Assembly: GCA_902574695.1 (NCBI GenBank)
Contig: CACGON010000001.1
Coordinates: 253,315-307,252, forward strand
DNA: 53,938 nt
Source: an uncultured Pelagibacteraceae bacterium
GTDB lineage: Bacteria > Pseudomonadota > Alphaproteobacteria > Pelagibacterales > Pelagibacteraceae
Direction: 5' to 3'
Shown here: positions 29,225 through 46,111 of the stretch, one piece after another
Numbering within the stretch: the stretch's first letter is position 1
Layout of the letters: every line of letters starts with the position of its first letter
Notes under the pieces: generated by a model
The model's database searches: none
Told to the model about the DNA's origin: nothing
The model's input: the letters and a program-made list of their open reading frames with translations, nothing else
Made by a program: the position numbers and the translations under genes

Positions 29225-29668
29225 ATGTTTTTATCGACATACGAGAACAGAATAGACAAAAAAGGGAGGGTGTCAGTGCCAGCTCCGTTTAGATCATACT
29301 TATCAAATCTTGGTTACAATGGCGTTATATGTTATCCATCATTTAACAACCAATCTATTGAAGCTTGGCCACAAGATAGAATTGAAAAAATATCTAATTC
29401 AATTGACGCATTGAATCCTTTTGATGAGAAAAAAGATTTTTTTTCAACATCTATTTTATCAGAATCTATAAATTTACAGTTTGATAGCGAGGGTAGAATT
29501 TCATTAACATCAAAATTATTAAAACATGCTAAAATAAAAAATAGCATGTTATTTGTTGGTCAAGGAAAAACCTTCCAAATTTGGGAGCCAACAAACTTCG
29601 AAAAATTTAGGGTAACTGCCAAAAAAAAATCAAATGTTAATAGGTCTAGCCTTAAATGGGAAAAATAA
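29225..29668 (+). CDS. mraZ: MraZ transcriptional regulator of the dcw cluster
   Basis: MraZ is the AbrB-fold, ring-forming DNA-binding protein that represses its own dcw promoter in other bacteria. The 147-residue protein has the two tandem MraZ repeats, each with the DxxGR signature: IDKKGRVSVPAPFR (about 10-23) and FDSEGRISLTSKLL (about 79-92). Length is normal. Probable target boxes lie just upstream. It is followed after 26 bp by ftsZ rather than by rsmH, which is the usual neighbour. Confidence 0.95.
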   Translation: MFLSTYENRIDKKGRVSVPAPFRSYLSNLGYNGVICYPSFNNQSIEAWPQDRIEKISNSIDALNPFDEKKDFFSTSILSESINLQFDSEGRISLTSKLLKHAKIKNSMLFVGQGKTFQIWEPTNFEKFRVTAKKKSNVNRSSLKWEK

Positions 29669-29680
29669 CTAAATAACTAT

Positions 29681-29686
29681 GAGGGG
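29681..29686 (+). promoter_or_regulatory. Strong ribosome binding site of ftsZ
   Basis: GAGGGG at 29681-29686 lies 8 nt before the ftsZ ATG (29695). Most genes of the cluster have no obvious Shine-Dalgarno and rely on stop/start overlap, so this strong site suggests ftsZ is translated at a higher rate than its neighbours. Confidence 0.6.
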
Positions 29687-29694
29687 ATAAAAAA

Positions 29695-31131
29695 ATGACA
29701 ATTAATTTTAGAATGCCAGATATAAAAGAGCTAAAACCTAGAATTTTAGTTTTAGGAGTAGGTGGGGCAGGAGGAAATGCAATAAACGAAATGATAGAAT
29801 CAGGAGTTGAAGGTGTTGAATTTGTCGCCGTGAATACAGATGCACAAGATCTTAAAGCAAGCAAAGCAAAACAAAAAGTACAACTAGGACTTAATTTAAC
29901 AAAAGGACTCGGAGCTGGAGCAAAAGTTGAAATAGGTCAGGCAGCTGCTGACGAGTCTCTTAATGAAATTATGGATTTATTAAAAGGTGCAAATATGGTT
30001 TTTATTACTGCAGGAATGGGTGGTGGAACTGGAACTGGCGCAGCTCACGTTATTGCAAGGGCGTCTAAAGAATTAAATATTTTAACTGTTGGTGTGGTAA
30101 CTCTTCCATTTTTATATGAGGCACCCTCAAGAATGAGGAGAGGACAGCAAGGCTTGGAGGAATTAAGAAAACACGTGGATACTATAATTGTAATTCCAAA
30201 TCAAAATTTGTTTAAAGTTGCAAATGAAAAAACAACTTTGAAAGAATCGTTTAAACTTTCTAATGGAGTATTACGTCATGGTGTGCAAAGCGTGACTGAT
30301 TTAATGGTTAAACAAGGATTGATTAATTTAGACTTTGCGGATGTTGAAACTGTAATGAGCCGTATGGGTAAAGCAATGATGGGAACAGGTGAAGCTGAAG
30401 GCGAAGGCAGAGCTGCGAAAGCAACTGAATTAGCTCTAAATAATCCGTTAATTGACGACTACTCTTTAAGAGGTGCAAGAGGTCTTTTAATCAATATTAC
30501 TGGAGGTGAAGACTTAACATTATTTGAGACTGATGAGATAGTAAATAAAATTAGACAAGAGGTCGATCATGCTGCTGAAATTATAATTGGATCAGTAACT
30601 GATAATTCATTAGAGGGAAAAGTTAGAGTATCCCTTGTAGCAACTGCTTTGGATGGTCAACAACCAGAGTCTAAATCTGTAATAAATATGGTTCATAGAA
30701 TTCAAAATAGAAATCCTGGTTATTCAGATTTTTCATCGATTAATAATCCACAGTCTTTTAATTTTTCTAACACTTCAACAATAACTAGTGGTGCAAATGC
30801 GCTAAAGGTTGAGAATGAAATATCAAAATCTGAGGAAAACAATATTGAAAATCATCAAAGTTTAAATGAAACTATTCAAATAAATGAAAATATTAATCAA
30901 GCTGATACTAACATAGATGAGGAAAGTCTTGTTTTAACTGATGAAGTAAATGATGAAGAAAAGGAGTCAAATGGATTAGAAAATTTTGGATTAAGTGAAG
31001 AAGAACCAAATTTATTTGACTCAGCTGAAAGCAATCATGTTAACCAGACAAATAATGATGAATTATCCCCTGACAATCAAGAAGAGGATGATTATGAAAT
31101 TCCAGCATTTTTAAGAAGACAAAAGAACTAA
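29695..31131 (+). CDS. ftsZ: Cell division protein FtsZ
   Basis: FtsZ is the tubulin-like GTPase that forms the Z ring. The 478-residue protein has [13 protein letters not shown] (GTP loop T1), the tubulin signature [15 protein letters not shown], the T7 synergy-loop region [15 protein letters not shown], an acidic variable linker (about 340-464) and the conserved C-terminal peptide [10 protein letters not shown], which docks FtsA and other partners. All GTPase motifs look intact. Placement is unusual: it lies between mraZ and rsmH and is missing from the usual slot between ftsA and lpxC. Confidence 0.96.
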
Positions 31132-31149
31132 TGGTCTTCAAAAAAATAG

Positions 31150-32160
31150 ATGAATGCCACCATTATATCGAATGATGAAAAACATTATCCGGTATTGCTA
31201 GATGAAATTCTAAGCATTATTTCCCCTCAAAATGGTGGCACATTTATCGATTGTACTTTTGGTCAAGGTGGTTATTCAAAAGCGATACTTAATTATCCTA
31301 AAACTAAAGTTTACGCATTAGATAGAGATAATAATACAAAAAAATACACCAATGATCTTTTAGAAAAAAATAAAGATCGTTTCTTTTTTTATAATTCTAA
31401 ATTTAGTGATTTAGATAAAATAAATTTTAATAAAGAAAAAATCAAAACAATCATATTTGATTTAGGATTTTCATATAATCAAGTTAAAGATTTAAAAAGG
31501 GGCCTCTCATTTTTCAGTGATGGTCCCCTGGATATGAGAATGGGATTAAATACATTCTCAGCCTTAGAAGTTGTAAATAATTTAGATCAAAAGGATCTAG
31601 TATCAATATTTAAGACATTTGGCGAAGAAAGAGATAGTAAGAGGATTGTAAAAAATATTATAATAGAGAGAAAAAAAGAAATAATTGATACAAAAAAACT
31701 TGTAAAAATAATTAATTTTTCAAAAAAAAAAAATAATAAAAAAACCCATAATTCTACAAAAGTCTTTCAGGCGCTTAGAATATTTGTAAACAAAGAGATA
31801 TCCGAATTAATAAAAGCTTTAATTAATTCTGTTAAAATTTTGGAAAAAAATGGGATTTTAATTTTAGTATCATTTCATTCATTAGAAGATAAAATTATAA
31901 AAACTTTTTTTAAATTACTTTCTGAGAATAAAAAAATTTCAAGATATATGCCTGATAATAAAGGCAAAACTAATATATTAAAGTTAGAAAAGAAAAAACC
32001 TATACTACCATCAACAAAAGAAATTAAAATTAATAACCCATCTAGATCAGCTAAACTTAGATATGCAATTAAAATTAATGAAGCTATAGACTTTGAAAAA
32101 GAGGTTTATGAGAAATTCAATCACTTAATTAATATTGAAAATTTATCAGACAAATTATGA
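31150..32160 (+). CDS. rsmH: 16S rRNA m4C1402 methyltransferase RsmH (MraW)
   Basis: RsmH adds the N4-methyl group to C1402 of 16S rRNA. The 336-residue protein shows the family motifs: [10 protein letters not shown] near the start, the SAM motif [37 protein letters not shown], and the late [14 protein letters not shown]. The start ATG at 31150 follows ftsZ by 18 bp and the stop overlaps ftsL (ATGA). A run of 12 A (31722-31733) lies within the coding sequence. Confidence 0.95.
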
Positions 32161-34138: not shown

Positions 34139-36988
34139 ATGTTTATTGGCAATTTATTTAAAAGTAACGACAAGAAAATTAGAAATCATTTTTTTTCAGG
34201 TTTAGCCTTTGATAGCAAATTATGTAAAAAAAATTTTATTTTTTTTGCAATTAAAGGAAATCATAATGATGGACATAATTATATAAATAAAGCTATTAAA
34301 AATGGCGCAACAACTATTATCCATCAAAAAACGTTTGAAGGCTTTAAAGAAAATATATTATTTTTAAGACATAAGAACATAAGAAAAGCTTTAGCAGAAT
34401 GTTCTTATAATTTTTTTAAAAAAAAACCTAAGAATATAATTGCTGTTACAGGAACTAACGGCAAATCCTCCGTATCAGATTTTTATTATCAAATATTAAA
34501 ATTAAATAAAATTAATGTAGCTTCAATCGGTACTTTAGGTATTAAATTTAAAAATAAAATTATTTCCACAAACAATACAACTTTAGACTCTATAAATCTT
34601 GCTAAATATTTAAATTTACTTAAAAATAATAAGATTGATAATGTAATTCTAGAAGCATCTAGCCATGGATTAAAACAAAATAGGCTTGATGGAATAAATT
34701 TTTCAACAGGCATATTTACAAATTTTTCTCATGATCATTTGGATTATCATAAAAATCTGAAAGATTATTTAAGTTCTAAATTATATTTGTTTAAATCTCT
34801 TCTTAAAAAAAAATCCAATGTAATAACTGATAAATCAATTAAAGAATTCTATAAAATAAAAAAAATTTCAAAAGATAAAAATTTAGTATTAAAAACTATT
34901 TTAAACGAAGATAGCAGTATTTATCTCTTAGAGCATAGCTATTTAGGCGAAAAACAGATCATTAAAGTTAAATATAAAAATAAAATTTATAATTTTACCG
35001 TAGATTTAATTGGAAAAACACAGGTAAAAAATATTCTTATGTCAATTTTAGCTGCTGAAAGTTCAAAAATTAATTTTGGAAAAATTATGAATAAAATAGG
35101 TAAATTAAAACCAATAGATGGCAGATTTGAAAAGATAGGGAAATTAAAAAATAATTCTTTTGTTATTTTAGATTATGCTCATACTCCTGATGCTCTTCAA
35201 ACTTGTTTAAGTGATTTAAGAGATCAATTTAGCGAAAAAAAAATTAATATTGTATTTGGTTGTGGTGGTGATCGAGATAAATTTAAAAGGTCGAAGATGG
35301 GCAAGATAGCTAACTCTTTTTGTTCTAAAGTTTATGTTACTGATGATAACCCAAGAAATGAGGATCCAGGCCAAATAAGAAAAAACATAAAAAGATATAT
35401 ATCTCCATCTAAAGTAATAGAAATAGGAGACAGAAAGTTTGCAATTTTAAGAGCTATTGAAAATCTTAAATCAAATGAAATATTGGTAGTAGCGGGCAAA
35501 GGACATGAACTTATACAAGATTATGGATATAAAAAAAAATTTTTTTCCGATAGAGATATTATTAAGAAATCCATAACAAACAAAAATAAAAACCTTTCAA
35601 ATAATTTGAAATCGAACATTTTAAGTGATTATTTTAATAAAAGTTTCTCAAAAAATCTTCTAATAAATTCAGCTTCTATAAACTCAAAAACTATAAAAAA
35701 AAATGAAATTTTTTTTGCAATAAAAGGTAAAAAAAATGATGGAAATTTATTTGTTAAAAATAGTTTAAATAAAGGTGCTTCAATGGCAATTGTAAATCAA
35801 TATCAAATGGCTACAAATCAAAAAAAACAAATTAAAGTTCAGAATAGTTTAAAATGTTTAACTAATTTATCAAAATTAATAAGAGACAATTTCCAAGGAA
35901 AAATAGTAGCGATCACAGGAAGTTGTGGCAAAACATCGTTAAAAAAAATAACTGGTGAGGCACTCAGCAAATTCAGCCATATATCCTTTTCACCAAAATC
36001 TTATAATAATAAGTATGGAGTTCCGTTAAGCCTTTTCAATCTTAATTTAAATAGTAACTATGGTGTGTTTGAAGTAGGAATGGATAAAAAAGGAGAAATT
36101 GATTATTTGAGTAAAATTTTAAAACCAAATATCGGAGTAATTACAAATATATCTTACGCACATGCAAAAAATTTTAAAAACATTAATCAAATTGCAGAAG
36201 CAAAAGGAGAAATAATTCAAAATATAAAAAAAAATGGAACAATAATTTTAAATAAAGATGATAGCTTTTTTAATTTGCATAAAGAAAAAGCTCAAAAAAG
36301 AGGTCTTAAAATAATCTCATTTGGTTTTAATAAAAAAGCTGACATAGGTTTAATGAAGACTAAAAAAAAAAATAAATATTTTAAAATATCAGTAAGAATT
36401 TTTAATCATAAAAAGTATTTTTATATCAAAAATAAAAACCAAAATAATATTTATAATATTCTAGCATCAATAGGAATAATTTGTTCATTGGGAAATAAAG
36501 AAAAATTATCAATCAATTTATTTTCAAAACTTGAGACACCTGAGGGAAGAGGTGATATTTCAAAAATAAAACTTAATCAAAAAAAATTTTATTTAATTGA
36601 TGAAAGTTATAATTCAAATCCACTCTCCATGGAGTCAGCAATTAATAATTACAATTTGATAAAATTAAAAAAAAATAAAAAACATTTTTTAATGGGAGAT
36701 ATGCTTGAGCTTGGAAAATTATCAAAAAAACTGCATGTTAGTTTAGCAAAAAATATAAACTCATCATCAATAGATAAACTCCATGTTTTTGGCAGATTCG
36801 CAAAAGAAACTTTAAAAAATATTAAAAATACTAAAAAAGGTAAATATTTAACGAGAGTAAATCAAATTAATGATTTGATTATTAAACAATTAAATAATAA
36901 TGACTATTTAATGGTCAAAGGTTCTAACTCTACTGGTTTAAATCAATTTCTGATAAAATTAAAGGATAATAAAACAAATGCTTTATAG
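34139..36988 (+). CDS. murE-murF: Fused MurE-MurF: UDP-MurNAc-tripeptide and -pentapeptide ligase
   Basis: This 949-residue protein joins two Mur ligases in one frame. The N-terminal half is MurE: ATP loop TGTNGKSS (104-111), and a DNPR motif (403-406), the signature of the meso-diaminopimelate-adding enzyme, then GKGHE (453-457). The C-terminal half is MurF: FAIKGKKNDG near 526-535, ATP loop TGSCGKTS (593-600), DESYNSNPLS and MGDMLELG. The linker is a short basic stretch near 478-495. It should add meso-DAP and then D-Ala-D-Ala. It overlaps mraY by 11 bp. Confidence 0.94.
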   Translation: MFIGNLFKSNDKKIRNHFFSGLAFDSKLCKKNFIFFAIKGNHNDGHNYINKAIKNGATTIIHQKTFEGFKENILFLRHKNIRKALAECSYNFFKKKPKNIIAVTGTNGKSSVSDFYYQILKLNKINVASIGTLGIKFKNKIISTNNTTLDSINLAKYLNLLKNNKIDNVILEASSHGLKQNRLDGINFSTGIFTNFSHDHLDYHKNLKDYLSSKLYLFKSLLKKKSNVITDKSIKEFYKIKKISKDKNLVLKTILNEDSSIYLLEHSYLGEKQIIKVKYKNKIYNFTVDLIGKTQVKNILMSILAAESSKINFGKIMNKIGKLKPIDGRFEKIGKLKNNSFVILDYAHTPDALQTCLSDLRDQFSEKKINIVFGCGGDRDKFKRSKMGKIANSFCSKVYVTDDNPRNEDPGQIRKNIKRYISPSKVIEIGDRKFAILRAIENLKSNEILVVAGKGHELIQDYGYKKKFFSDRDIIKKSITNKNKNLSNNLKSNILSDYFNKSFSKNLLINSASINSKTIKKNEIFFAIKGKKNDGNLFVKNSLNKGASMAIVNQYQMATNQKKQIKVQNSLKCLTNLSKLIRDNFQGKIVAITGSCGKTSLKKITGEALSKFSHISFSPKSYNNKYGVPLSLFNLNLNSNYGVFEVGMDKKGEIDYLSKILKPNIGVITNISYAHAKNFKNINQIAEAKGEIIQNIKKNGTIILNKDDSFFNLHKEKAQKRGLKIISFGFNKKADIGLMKTKKKNKYFKISVRIFNHKKYFYIKNKNQNNIYNILASIGIICSLGNKEKLSINLFSKLETPEGRGDISKIKLNQKKFYLIDESYNSNPLSMESAINNYNLIKLKKNKKHFLMGDMLELGKLSKKLHVSLAKNINSSSIDKLHVFGRFAKETLKNIKNTKKGKYLTRVNQINDLIIKQLNNNDYLMVKGSNSTGLNQFLIKLKDNKTNAL

Positions 36989-43856: not shown

Positions 43857-44774
43857 ATGAAAAGAATTTTGATTTTGGGAGGAGGAATATCAAAAGAAAG
43901 AGAAATAAGTCTAGATACTGCAAAACAAGTAAATAAAACTCTAAAAAAAAAATTTAAAACTATTATTTGTGAACCAAATCATCAACTGAACAAAAATATT
44001 AAAAGATTTAAACCTAATATAATATTTAATGCTTTACACGGTCGATTTGGGGAGGATGGTTATATTCAATCTGTTTTAGAAAAATTGAAAATTAAATACA
44101 CTCATTCAGGTGTTATTTCTTCATTCTTAGCCATGAATAAAATTCTATCAAAGGAAATTTTTATCAAAAATAATATACCGACCCCAAAATATTTAAAATT
44201 CATTTTTTCAAAAAAAAATATGATTAAGAAAAAAATTGTCAAAAAAATTAATGATAAACTTAAATTTCCGGTAATAATTAAACCAATTAACGAAGGATCA
44301 AGTGTTGACGTTTTTATTTGTACAAAAAAAAATATATTATCTAATTTAAAAAAGCTTGAAAAATATAATGAAATTATTATTGAAAAATATATTGGGGGGA
44401 GAGAAATTCAGGTTGCTATATTAGGTAAAAAAAAATTAGGTGCAATTGAGCTAAGGCCGAAAAGAAAATTTTATGATTATAAAGCAAAATATAGCTCAAG
44501 TGCAAAAACAGAGCACATCATCCCAGTAAATTTAGAAAAAAAATATTTGGATAAAGTTTTAAATTTAGGTTTAAAAGCTCACAAACTCTTAGGATGTAGA
44601 GGTGTAACAAGATCTGATTTTAAATTTTATAAAAATAAATTTTATTTATTAGAGGTAAATACGCAGCCTGGTATGACAAAACTCTCACTCGTTCCTGAAA
44701 TAGCTTTATATAGAAAGATGTCGTTTTTAAATTTATTAGAATGGATTGTTAATGATGCATCTCTTAACAGATAA
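43857..44774 (+). CDS. ddl: D-alanine--D-alanine ligase
   Basis: Ddl makes the D-Ala-D-Ala dipeptide used by MurF. The 305-residue ATP-grasp protein has ILGGGISKEREISL near the N-terminus, NALHGRFGEDGYIQS, the ATP-site strand FPVIIKPINEGSSVDV, and the metal-binding C-terminus FYLLEVNTQPGMTKLSLVPE. It follows murB without a gap. The 3' end overlaps ftsQ by about 23 bp. Confidence 0.95.
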   Translation: MKRILILGGGISKEREISLDTAKQVNKTLKKKFKTIICEPNHQLNKNIKRFKPNIIFNALHGRFGEDGYIQSVLEKLKIKYTHSGVISSFLAMNKILSKEIFIKNNIPTPKYLKFIFSKKNMIKKKIVKKINDKLKFPVIIKPINEGSSVDVFICTKKNILSNLKKLEKYNEIIIEKYIGGREIQVAILGKKKLGAIELRPKRKFYDYKAKYSSSAKTEHIIPVNLEKKYLDKVLNLGLKAHKLLGCRGVTRSDFKFYKNKFYLLEVNTQPGMTKLSLVPEIALYRKMSFLNLLEWIVNDASLNR

Positions 44775-45420
44775 GAAAAAAAAAATAATATTTTATTTAT
44801 TTATATTTATTTTTTTATCGACAATATTTAATTTTAAAATAGTTAAGTCTATTAAGGATTTATTTAAAATTAAGAATATTGAAATAAACAATGAGTTTTA
44901 TTTTGAAGAGTTTGATAATTTATTTGAAAAAAATATTTTTAATTTAAAAAAAGATGATATTTTGAATACAATATTTAAGTTTCCAATATTAGAAAGTTTT
45001 AAAGTTAACAAAATTTATCCAAATAAAATCAACATTATTTTAAAAGAAACAAAACCAATTGCAAAGACCTATATTAATAATGATCTTTTTTATATTGGAG
45101 AAAATAAAAATTTTTTTAAAGGTAAGAAAAATATAGAAAAAATTTTATTAGTGACAGGAATTACAGATAAAAAAACAATAATCTTATTTTTAGAAGATAT
45201 TAAAAAGTCAAATATTAATTATAATTCTATAGAAAAAATAATTTATTTTCCATCAAAAAGATGGGATATAGTATTAAAGGATAAAACAATTTTAAAGTTG
45301 CCAAGTGTTAATACTCATGAAAAAATTAAAATTGCAAAAGTATTGCTTGATAAAAAAGAAATTAGAGGCAAAGTAATTGATCTAAGAATTAACAACAAAG
45401 TTATTCTCACAAATGAATAA
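44752..45420 (+). CDS. ftsQ: FtsQ-like divisome protein
   Basis: FtsQ links early and late division proteins in the periplasm. The protein is about 222 residues from the ATG at 44752; a TTG two codons upstream is also in frame. It has one N-terminal membrane segment (IIFYLFIFIFLSTIFNF), a POTRA-like region (about 35-100, IKNIEINNEFYFEEFDNLF and FPILESFKVNKIYPNKINII) and a C-terminal beta domain. Sequence conservation is low, but topology and the ddl-ftsQ-ftsA order support it. It overlaps the ftsA-like gene by 8 bp. Confidence 0.87.
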   Translation: MMHLLTDKKKKIIFYLFIFIFLSTIFNFKIVKSIKDLFKIKNIEINNEFYFEEFDNLFEKNIFNLKKDDILNTIFKFPILESFKVNKIYPNKINIILKETKPIAKTYINNDLFYIGENKNFFKGKKNIEKILLVTGITDKKTIILFLEDIKKSNINYNSIEKIIYFPSKRWDIVLKDKTILKLPSVNTHEKIKIAKVLLDKKEIRGKVIDLRINNKVILTNE

Positions 45421-46111
45421 CGTAATTTTTTTAAATTTATCACAAAATAAAATCTCAATTATTATTTACGATAGAGATAATCAAAAACAAGTTTTCAATC
45501 AAGATTTTGAGGCGGAAGGTTTATTATCAAATAATCTTATTTTACAAAATAAATTAAATAATATTTTAAAAGAGCAAGTTTTACATATAGAAAATAAGAT
45601 GAATATATCTATTAGCACTATTCATTTAATGATTGATGACCCAAAAATTTTTACTATCAAAATTTCAACAAAAAAAAACTATGAGAAAAATCAAATAAAA
45701 AAAAAAGAAATTGAATATTTAATTCAAGATTTAAAACAACAGATAAGCTTTAGTAGCAAAGATCTTAAAATTTTACATATTGTAGCAGAAAATTTTGTTT
45801 TAGATGGCATACAGACAGAAACTATTCCTATTAACGATTATTGTAATGATTTAGTAATTGAGGTTAAATTTATATGTATAAAAAAACATTTTGTTGAATT
45901 GGTTCAGGATATTTTTAAAAAATATCAAATAGATTTAGAATTAGTAATTAGTACAGAATATGCCCTGTCTCAAACTCCAATTACTAGCAAAGGTTTATTA
46001 GAGGCTGGTTTATGTATTATTAATCGTTCAAATCATAAGGAAGTTTTTATTTTGCCAAAAAAAACGACCAAGTTGGGTTTTTTTGAGAGAATTTTCCATA
46101 TATTTTCATAG
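45413..46111 (+). CDS. Truncated FtsA-like protein (mini-FtsA)
   Basis: The gene sits in the ftsA slot (after ftsQ, before lpxC) but encodes only 232 residues, versus about 400 or more in FtsA. It aligns by eye with FtsA's N-terminal half: a first beta-strand pair (VIFLNLSQNKISIIIYD, 4-20) at the phosphate-1 site, and an SHS2/1C-like region including ILHIVAENFVLDGIQ (120-134) and STEYALSQTP (180-189). Where FtsA has the phosphate-2 motif DIGGGTT, this protein reads INRSNHK (203-209). About 15 residues later it ends in an amphipathic helix (LGFFERIFHIFS), like the FtsA membrane-targeting tail. Subdomains 2A/2B are absent and no remnant lies downstream. Confidence 0.75.
   Translation: MNNVIFLNLSQNKISIIIYDRDNQKQVFNQDFEAEGLLSNNLILQNKLNNILKEQVLHIENKMNISISTIHLMIDDPKIFTIKISTKKNYEKNQIKKKEIEYLIQDLKQQISFSSKDLKILHIVAENFVLDGIQTETIPINDYCNDLVIEVKFICIKKHFVELVQDIFKKYQIDLELVISTEYALSQTPITSKGLLEAGLCIINRSNHKEVFILPKKTTKLGFFERIFHIFS

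Follow-up and report, generated by a model that had tools for sequence, protein, structure and literature searches.

A short FtsA of Pelagibacter that retains domain 1 and may serve as an ATP-independent membrane adaptor of the divisome

The stretch of DNA analysed here, referred to as the window, comprises 53,938 nucleotides of contig CACGON010000001.1 (positions 253,315–307,252; assembly GCA_902574695.1) from an uncultured Pelagibacteraceae bacterium, and all coordinates are those of the window. It contains a cluster of division and cell-wall genes (most neighbours were named by eye) that is closed by a short homologue of ftsA, termed here mini-ftsA. The gene occupies the place of ftsA in a division cluster, i.e., it overlaps ftsQ and is followed by lpxC (from 46168), and the overlap, which the preliminary description of the locus had reported as intact, was confirmed. 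The ftsZ gene is located at the head of the cluster, between mraZ-like and rsmH-like frames (29225–32160), rather than downstream of ftsA; a separation of about 16 kb between the two genes is likewise seen in G041, an order-level relative. At 34139–36988 there is a 949-aa frame with two sets of Mur ligase domains (Pfam), which by its position resembles a MurE-MurF fusion. The features of the locus and the parts of mini-FtsA are as follows:

29695–31131, + strand: ftsZ, 478 aa, about 14 kb upstream of mini-ftsA, with an intact 11-residue C-terminal peptide at 31096–31128
44746–45420, + strand: ftsQ, with an 8-bp overlap with mini-ftsA
45413–46111, + strand: mini-ftsA, ATG start, a 232-residue FtsA homologue that consists of domain 1 only
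45413–45646, + strand: subdomain 1A, first part, residues 1–78 (approximate border; strands and helices of the model)
45647–45883, + strand: subdomain 1C/SHS2, residues 79–157 (approximate border; Pfam SHS2_FTSA match and model)
45884–45973, + strand: subdomain 1A, second part, residues 158–187, ending in the short helix 'STEYALS'
45974–45994, + strand: junction left by the loss of 2A and 2B, residues 188–194 (approximate; alignment with full-length relatives, spacing)
45995–46021, + strand: last 1A helix, residues 195–203, aligning with the C-terminal end of full-length FtsA
46022–46075, + strand: linker, residues 204–221, mostly of low model confidence, with a conserved 'N..EV' motif
46076–46108, + strand: C-terminal amphipathic helix GFFERIFHIFS, a membrane-targeting sequence as predicted from sequence only

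The kinship of mini-FtsA with FtsA is beyond chance, as family models and fold comparisons consistently indicate. The NCBIfam FtsA model (TIGR01174) matches residues 5–204 with E 5.1e-8, at a score (32.4 bits) below the curated cut-off (175.85), and the Pfam SHS2_FTSA model matches residues 88–154 with E 3.4e-4, also below its family cut-off. The AlphaFold model of the protein, for which 12 short forms including the protein itself were aligned, reached pLDDT 86.4 and pTM 0.80, with confidence being low from about residue 215. When this model was searched with Foldseek, FtsA crystal structures came first (4a2a, E 1.5e-12), and in the VIA comparison 11 FtsA entries gave Z of 12.8–15.4 over 195–205 residues (15.4 for 3wt0, 14.1 for 1e4g), the alignment with 1e4g extending over residues 1–204 of the model and 7–392 of the crystal structure. 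The 1A plus 1C (SHS2) fold of FtsA is thus recognised, and the early proposal of an FtsA-like 232-residue protein at the ftsA locus is borne out by the reading frame, the family models and a clear match to FtsA crystal structures. The next matches after FtsA were PilM (Z 11.5) and GspL/EpsL (Z 11.0). PilM and the cytoplasmic domain of GspL/EpsL are FtsA-like actin folds in membrane-linked adaptors, and belong to pilus and secretion systems; their Z is below that of every FtsA row, and mini-ftsA is neighboured by ftsQ and lpxC, with no pilus or secretion genes beside it. A model of the short forms of clade E, a group of the genus discussed below, was poor (alignment A4, 10 rows; pLDDT 52.8, pTM 0.34) and carries no weight here; its order of strands and helices resembles that of the window model.

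Canonical FtsA (TIGR01174; structures 1E4G, 4A2B, 7Q6D, 7Q6F and 3WT0) shares with mini-FtsA the place after ftsQ in the division cluster, the 1A and 1C fold including its closing 1A helix, and an amphipathic helix at the C-terminus. However, mini-FtsA is devoid of 2A and 2B as well as of the phosphate-1, phosphate-2 and adenosine motifs, and presumably is no actin-like ATPase. Full-length FtsA of Pelagibacter (L053, L064, L103 and L075, the last being that of HTCC9565) has the same place between ftsQ and lpxC, a tail closely similar in sequence and a domain 1 alignable throughout, but is 370–402 aa long and keeps domain 2 together with phosphate-1 D/G/R and 'GxGS'. Read against these proteins, mini-FtsA consists of 1A, 1C and the return of 1A as far as the 'EYALS' helix, followed directly by the helix that ends the actin fold and then by linker and tail; what is missing is domain 2 (2A and 2B, about 140–163 residues), including the phosphate-2 loop and the adenosine motif. 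Residues from about 195 to 232, which comprise the last 1A helix, the linker and the membrane helix, pair with the C-terminus of full-length Pelagibacter FtsA, e.g., 'ICESGLKVIKGQSKQEVVIVPKKIEKKGFFEKLFHFFK' in L007/L053, as read from two alignments, one MAFFT mode having displaced part of the segment and another having aligned it. The deletion is therefore placed wholly upstream of these residues, from after the 'SSYAKS' helix, and the earlier statement that INRSNHK replaces the phosphate-2 site DIGGGTT turned out to be a misalignment, INRSNHK being part of that C-terminal end. The loss of half of the actin fold and of both phosphate motifs, claimed in the same place, stands, and an internal loss of 2A/2B with 1A/1C and the membrane helix being kept is supported. 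The borders of the deletion coincide in 51 of the 51 aligned short forms, and Y183 is separated from E210 by 27 residues in mini-FtsA vs 168–190 in full-length forms.

The phosphate-1 motif of domain 1 is eroded as well. The D, G and R of phosphate-1 are found in 35, 35 and 34 of 35 full forms (97–100%) vs 2, 4 and 0 of 47 short forms (0–9%), with N, S and S at these positions in mini-FtsA of the window; such erosion is expected when domain 2 is gone. The 1A glutamate, E60, is kept in all 48 short and all 35 full forms. With phosphate-2 and the adenosine motif belonging to the missing part, every nucleotide motif is gone, and sequence thus supports the earlier suggestion that the protein would be nucleotide-independent. 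The tail, also put forward as amphipathic at the outset, has a hydrophobic moment of 0.65, which lies between the 95th and the 99th percentile for 11-residue segments of these proteins; the mean is 0.67 in 51 short forms (minimum 0.59) vs 0.70 in 38 full forms. Within the helix, three F residues are kept in 51, 51 and 48 of 51 short forms. Binding of mini-FtsA to the membrane is predicted.

The short FtsA is found in many lineages of Pelagibacter and is not a strain-specific accident. When named genomes of bacteria and archaea were scanned with LpxC (alignment A3), 582 relatives were found; the 80 best loci were retained, and each of them bears the title Pelagibacteraceae, Pelagibacterales or Ca. 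Pelagibacter. Within these best 80 of 582, ftsA upstream of lpxC is short in 39 loci (223–248 aa from stop to stop) and full-length in 31 (370–402 aa), i.e., lengths in the 70 uncut loci are strictly bimodal and none is intermediate; seven of the other 10 loci are cut by a contig end (four look short, three full) and three begin too near lpxC to hold a 90-aa ftsA frame. Among nine genomes searched with alignment A1, intact short frames of 233, 233, 222 and 242 aa are present in the single-contig genomes G246, G693, G481 and G327, where the short gene is the sole match to alignment A1 at E ≤ 0.1, and TIGR01174 revealed no other FtsA in the two of these four that were searched with it (G246 and G327). 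The number of species that carry it, and its intact frame in four single-contig genomes, rule out an assembly error or a strain mutation. Further, a nine-contig genome (G596) has a short ftsA (237 aa), a three-contig genome (G531) has a full one (374 aa), its weak second A1 match being ZapA (Pfam), and two genomes from another genus of the same family have full-length ftsA of 400 and 407 aa. Since named loci and G genomes overlap (e.g., L036 and G034 are one contig, judging by length), the counts are not additive. The possibility raised beforehand, that close relatives carry full-length orthologues, holds for other clades of the genus and not for the clade of the window, where 18 of 18 rows are short, two of them as judged from frames cut by a contig end with the junction still visible.

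Broader searches were less suited to counting. The genus search matched 307 of 399 genomes, and its best 150 of 307 rows (134 of 230–250 aa, 15 of 365 aa or more, one of 207 aa) lean towards short forms by construction, so that no prevalence is claimed from them. In the class, 351 of 386 genomes were above the cut-off of the FtsA search and one was matchless. When 23 of the 35 non-passing genomes and G012 were relisted at E ≤ 0.01, no frame listed outside the genus was shorter than 344 aa; the window's own genome is one of the remaining 12, and a short form could have escaped notice in genomes that match weakly. In five class-level genomes (G176, G267, G251, G332 and G261; 90–99% complete) the best match to the FtsA model is only a stretch with the size and place typical of MreB; these genomes may lack FtsA or have a strongly diverged one.

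The short ftsA is under purifying selection, and no dN/dS value suggests a pseudogene. The medians (NG86) are 0.24 in the close kin of the window (15/15 pairs usable), 0.18 in clade E (27/28 pairs), 0.17 in clade A (6/6 pairs) and 0.30 in clade C (13/15 pairs), next to 0.51 in full-length ftsA (61/66 pairs), and in the same groups ftsQ gave 0.24–0.54 and lpxC 0.06–0.20; these values are rough, since dS is near 1 in many pairs and the four short groups covered leave clade B aside. Phosphate-2 is already degenerate in many full-length Pelagibacter FtsA (L053, L064, L103 and others), reading DIGxxKTS instead of DIGGGTT, and together with the median of full forms this suggests that relaxed constraint preceded the loss of domain 2. 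Conservation and dN/dS, which had been named as checks, thus agree with the initial view that the gene is not in recent decay, as do the many species and the lack of a second ftsA described below. It is accordingly improbable that mini-FtsA is a decaying remnant, tolerated since division in small cells no longer needs FtsA. Such decay would fit the low identity of short forms to the window protein (only 25–48%) and the fast evolution of full-length forms in the genus, but not the nearly constant length of short forms, the selection seen in the four groups or the membrane helix found in every aligned short form; similarly, the short frame of single-contig G012 (L019/L166), broken at a T/A homopolymer stretch by either sequencing error or real decay, is set against the open frames of the four other single-contig genomes.

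Gene fission, with domain 2 located elsewhere as a separate protein and completing FtsA in trans, is more improbable still. It is suggested by L028 (genome G010), where a single in-frame stop (at about 2050) separates domain 1 from domain 2 of a full-length ftsA, by fission, decay or sequencing error. Yet the very same case argues for the sensitivity of the search made with PF14450, the model covering domain 2, in 61 genomes: the 198-aa second half of the split gene was detected with 41 bits, so that a free-standing domain 2 of ordinary divergence would be revealed. The model was above cut-off on the ftsA frame in 11 of 11 full-length genus genomes vs 0 of 14 short ones. The 14 short genomes (55–100% complete) gave matches of MreB or DnaK length in 12 cases and none in two (G006 and G024), with matches read through for the window's genome and judged by frame length in the others; neither a separate domain-2 gene nor a second full-length ftsA was found in them. 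In the window's genome (88% complete) the matches were MreB (Pfam E 2.9e-142) and a weak DnaK-like frame, i.e., 2A and 2B are absent from the mini-FtsA frame and were not found elsewhere, and the second full-length ftsA that the preliminary description had proposed to look for was not found either. One further genome (G021), near the short forms, stands outside the 14 because a contig end cuts its ftsA before the junction. The domain 1 of short forms, having lost the phosphate-1 residues, also speaks against completion in trans.

As for the origin of the short form, domain 2 was either lost independently several times (in A+B, C, D with the window, and E) or lost once and followed by exchange of ftsA alleles, and the chance of repeated loss is put at slightly below one half. 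In a tree built from five proteins encoded in the flanks (Ddl, LpxC, BamD, LigA and MurB; 99 rows, of which some are less than half filled) the short forms fall into several clades, with at least five changes. In a 57-row subset, picked after the 99-row tree, the concatenated flanking genes reject one short clade (dlnL 182, p-AU 2.6e-8), D+E (p 0.009) and C+D (p 0.002), do not reject C alone (p 0.118), and unite A+B as one clade; among single genes ftsQ (p 0.006) and ddl (p 0.009) reject one short clade, and lpxC does not (p 0.14). These tests are to be read with the reservation that the groups (A, B, C, D with the window, and E) were named after the first tree, and that the two trees disagree on the attachment of A, B and E (A and B apart and E sister to a full-length clade in the 99-row tree vs A and B together and E basal in the 57-row tree). 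The tree of FtsA domain 1, in contrast, places the short and full forms of the genus nearly on opposite sides of one branch, although lost ATP-site columns may draw the short forms together, which weakens this tree; moreover, the FtsA data do not reject C with L103 (p 0.38) or E with a full-length clade (p 0.25), while L071 with L103 is rejected (p 0.026). The spacing from Y183 to E210 (across the 51 short forms, 27 residues in groups A, B and D, 28 in group C, and 27 or 28 in group E) is what one deletion with recombination would give. In sum, the FtsA tree and the near-identical length of the junction fit one deletion that spread, and the flanking genes reject one short clade.

If the lobe of FtsA is lost, the question of FtsZ arises. 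All 12 short genomes that were read share one and the same C-terminal FtsZ peptide, as do 9 of the 11 full-length genus genomes, the two others differing in the last residue; the same peptide is found in G021 and in four genomes of unassigned FtsA class, and in two genomes of another family it reads EIPSFLRRQSK. A change of the peptide along with the loss in FtsA was thus not seen in the 12 short genomes, and its retention suggests that something still binds FtsZ, though the usual lobe is gone. In T. maritima the peptide reportedly binds to 2B of FtsA. In other bacteria it is bound by several other proteins, so that conservation of the peptide is not FtsA-specific. SepF has a fold unrelated to that of FtsA, and is rejected as a replacement anchor, as the window's genome, mini-FtsA frame included, has no PF04472 match at E ≤ 1. 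In other organisms SepF is reported to be a small FtsZ membrane anchor (PMC8178401, PMC7118173). A SPOR search was run in 41 genomes and read for the window's genome, where the sole match is a 253-aa frame with a lipoprotein-like start (L154; G000:C8:42599); its reading by eye as RlpA was not borne out, Pfam giving only a SPOR domain just under cut-off, and no canonical FtsN is evident in this genome from the search.

Studies of FtsA in other bacteria give a divided picture of what domain 1 alone could bind. In Neisseria gonorrhoeae the binding of FtsZ depends on 2A and 2B, to which that of FtsN and FtsQ was also assigned (PMC5727935). In Vibrio maritimus FtsA the tail of FtsN lies in the IA–IC cleft, and IC makes the lateral and IIA/IIB the longitudinal contact (PMC7613929). 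The assignment from N. gonorrhoeae disagrees with the IA–IC cleft, and would leave mini-FtsA without FtsN and FtsQ as partners.

The explanation that we favour, with a probability of roughly 0.55, is that the short ftsA encodes a genuine, selected, domain-1-only FtsA, which is ATP-free, probably non-polymerising, and serves as a membrane adaptor of the divisome. An in-frame internal deletion would have removed domain 2 (2A and 2B) and fused the two halves of 1A, so as to leave 1A, 1C, the closing 1A helix and the membrane helix. Judging from the alignments, the regions known for FtsZ binding and for ATP-dependent polymerisation are missing; the protein would be unable to bind ATP in the actin manner or to form the longitudinal IIA/IIB actin-like polymer, and would have lost the known FtsZ-binding lobe. 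It may reside on the membrane as an ATP-independent monomer or as a dimer held by the 1C contact and act as an adaptor through the 1A–1C surface, while FtsZ would be bound either at a novel domain-1 site or by some other protein that anchors it. Several points go against the adaptor reading: the peptide of FtsZ is retained in the 12 short genomes read although the usual lobe for it is gone, no canonical FtsN is evident in the window's genome as a partner for the 1A–1C surface, the tail has a moment short of the 99th percentile, and in E. coli FtsA function is tied to ATP-dependent polymerisation on membranes (PMC10213515), which mini-FtsA should not perform. The preliminary description had instead named the protein an FtsZ tether, and as stated this is unsupported, because 2A and 2B, needed for FtsZ binding in the N. 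gonorrhoeae work (PMC5727935), are exactly the lost part. A modified version, in which mini-FtsA would still be a minimal ATP-free membrane anchor, with the FtsZ peptide bound to a new domain-1 site, is a less likely alternative. The unchanged peptide, the membrane helix kept in short forms and the lack of a SepF match in the window's genome are in its favour, but the N. gonorrhoeae requirement for 2A/2B and the existence of other binders of the peptide weigh against it. The adaptor reading leaves the identity of the FtsZ anchor to either of its two routes.

FtsA is regarded as an ATP-driven actin homologue, the polymer state of which controls septation, and mini-FtsA is a descendant of FtsA that falls outside the definition of an actin-like ATPase. 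No report on a short FtsA or on SAR11 FtsA was found in the open-licence literature as represented by titles and the beginnings of abstracts, and none on a short FtsA in the available part of a paper on Pelagibacter cell-cycle genes (PMC2877005). With about even odds, the Z-ring in a large part of Pelagibacter would operate without an actin-like FtsA polymer or ATPase, FtsA having been pared, repeatedly or once with subsequent exchange, to a passive domain-1 adaptor, and the tail of FtsZ being bound by a new site or by another anchor. This would mean that a selected natural FtsA without ATP site and polymer interface exists in one of the most abundant bacterial groups of the sea. Such a protein would separate what is essential in FtsA, i.e., a membrane-bound domain 1, from the dispensable parts, and would allow direct tests of what the FtsA polymer does; it also predicts that FtsZ in SAR11 is held by a novel anchor or through a novel binding site.
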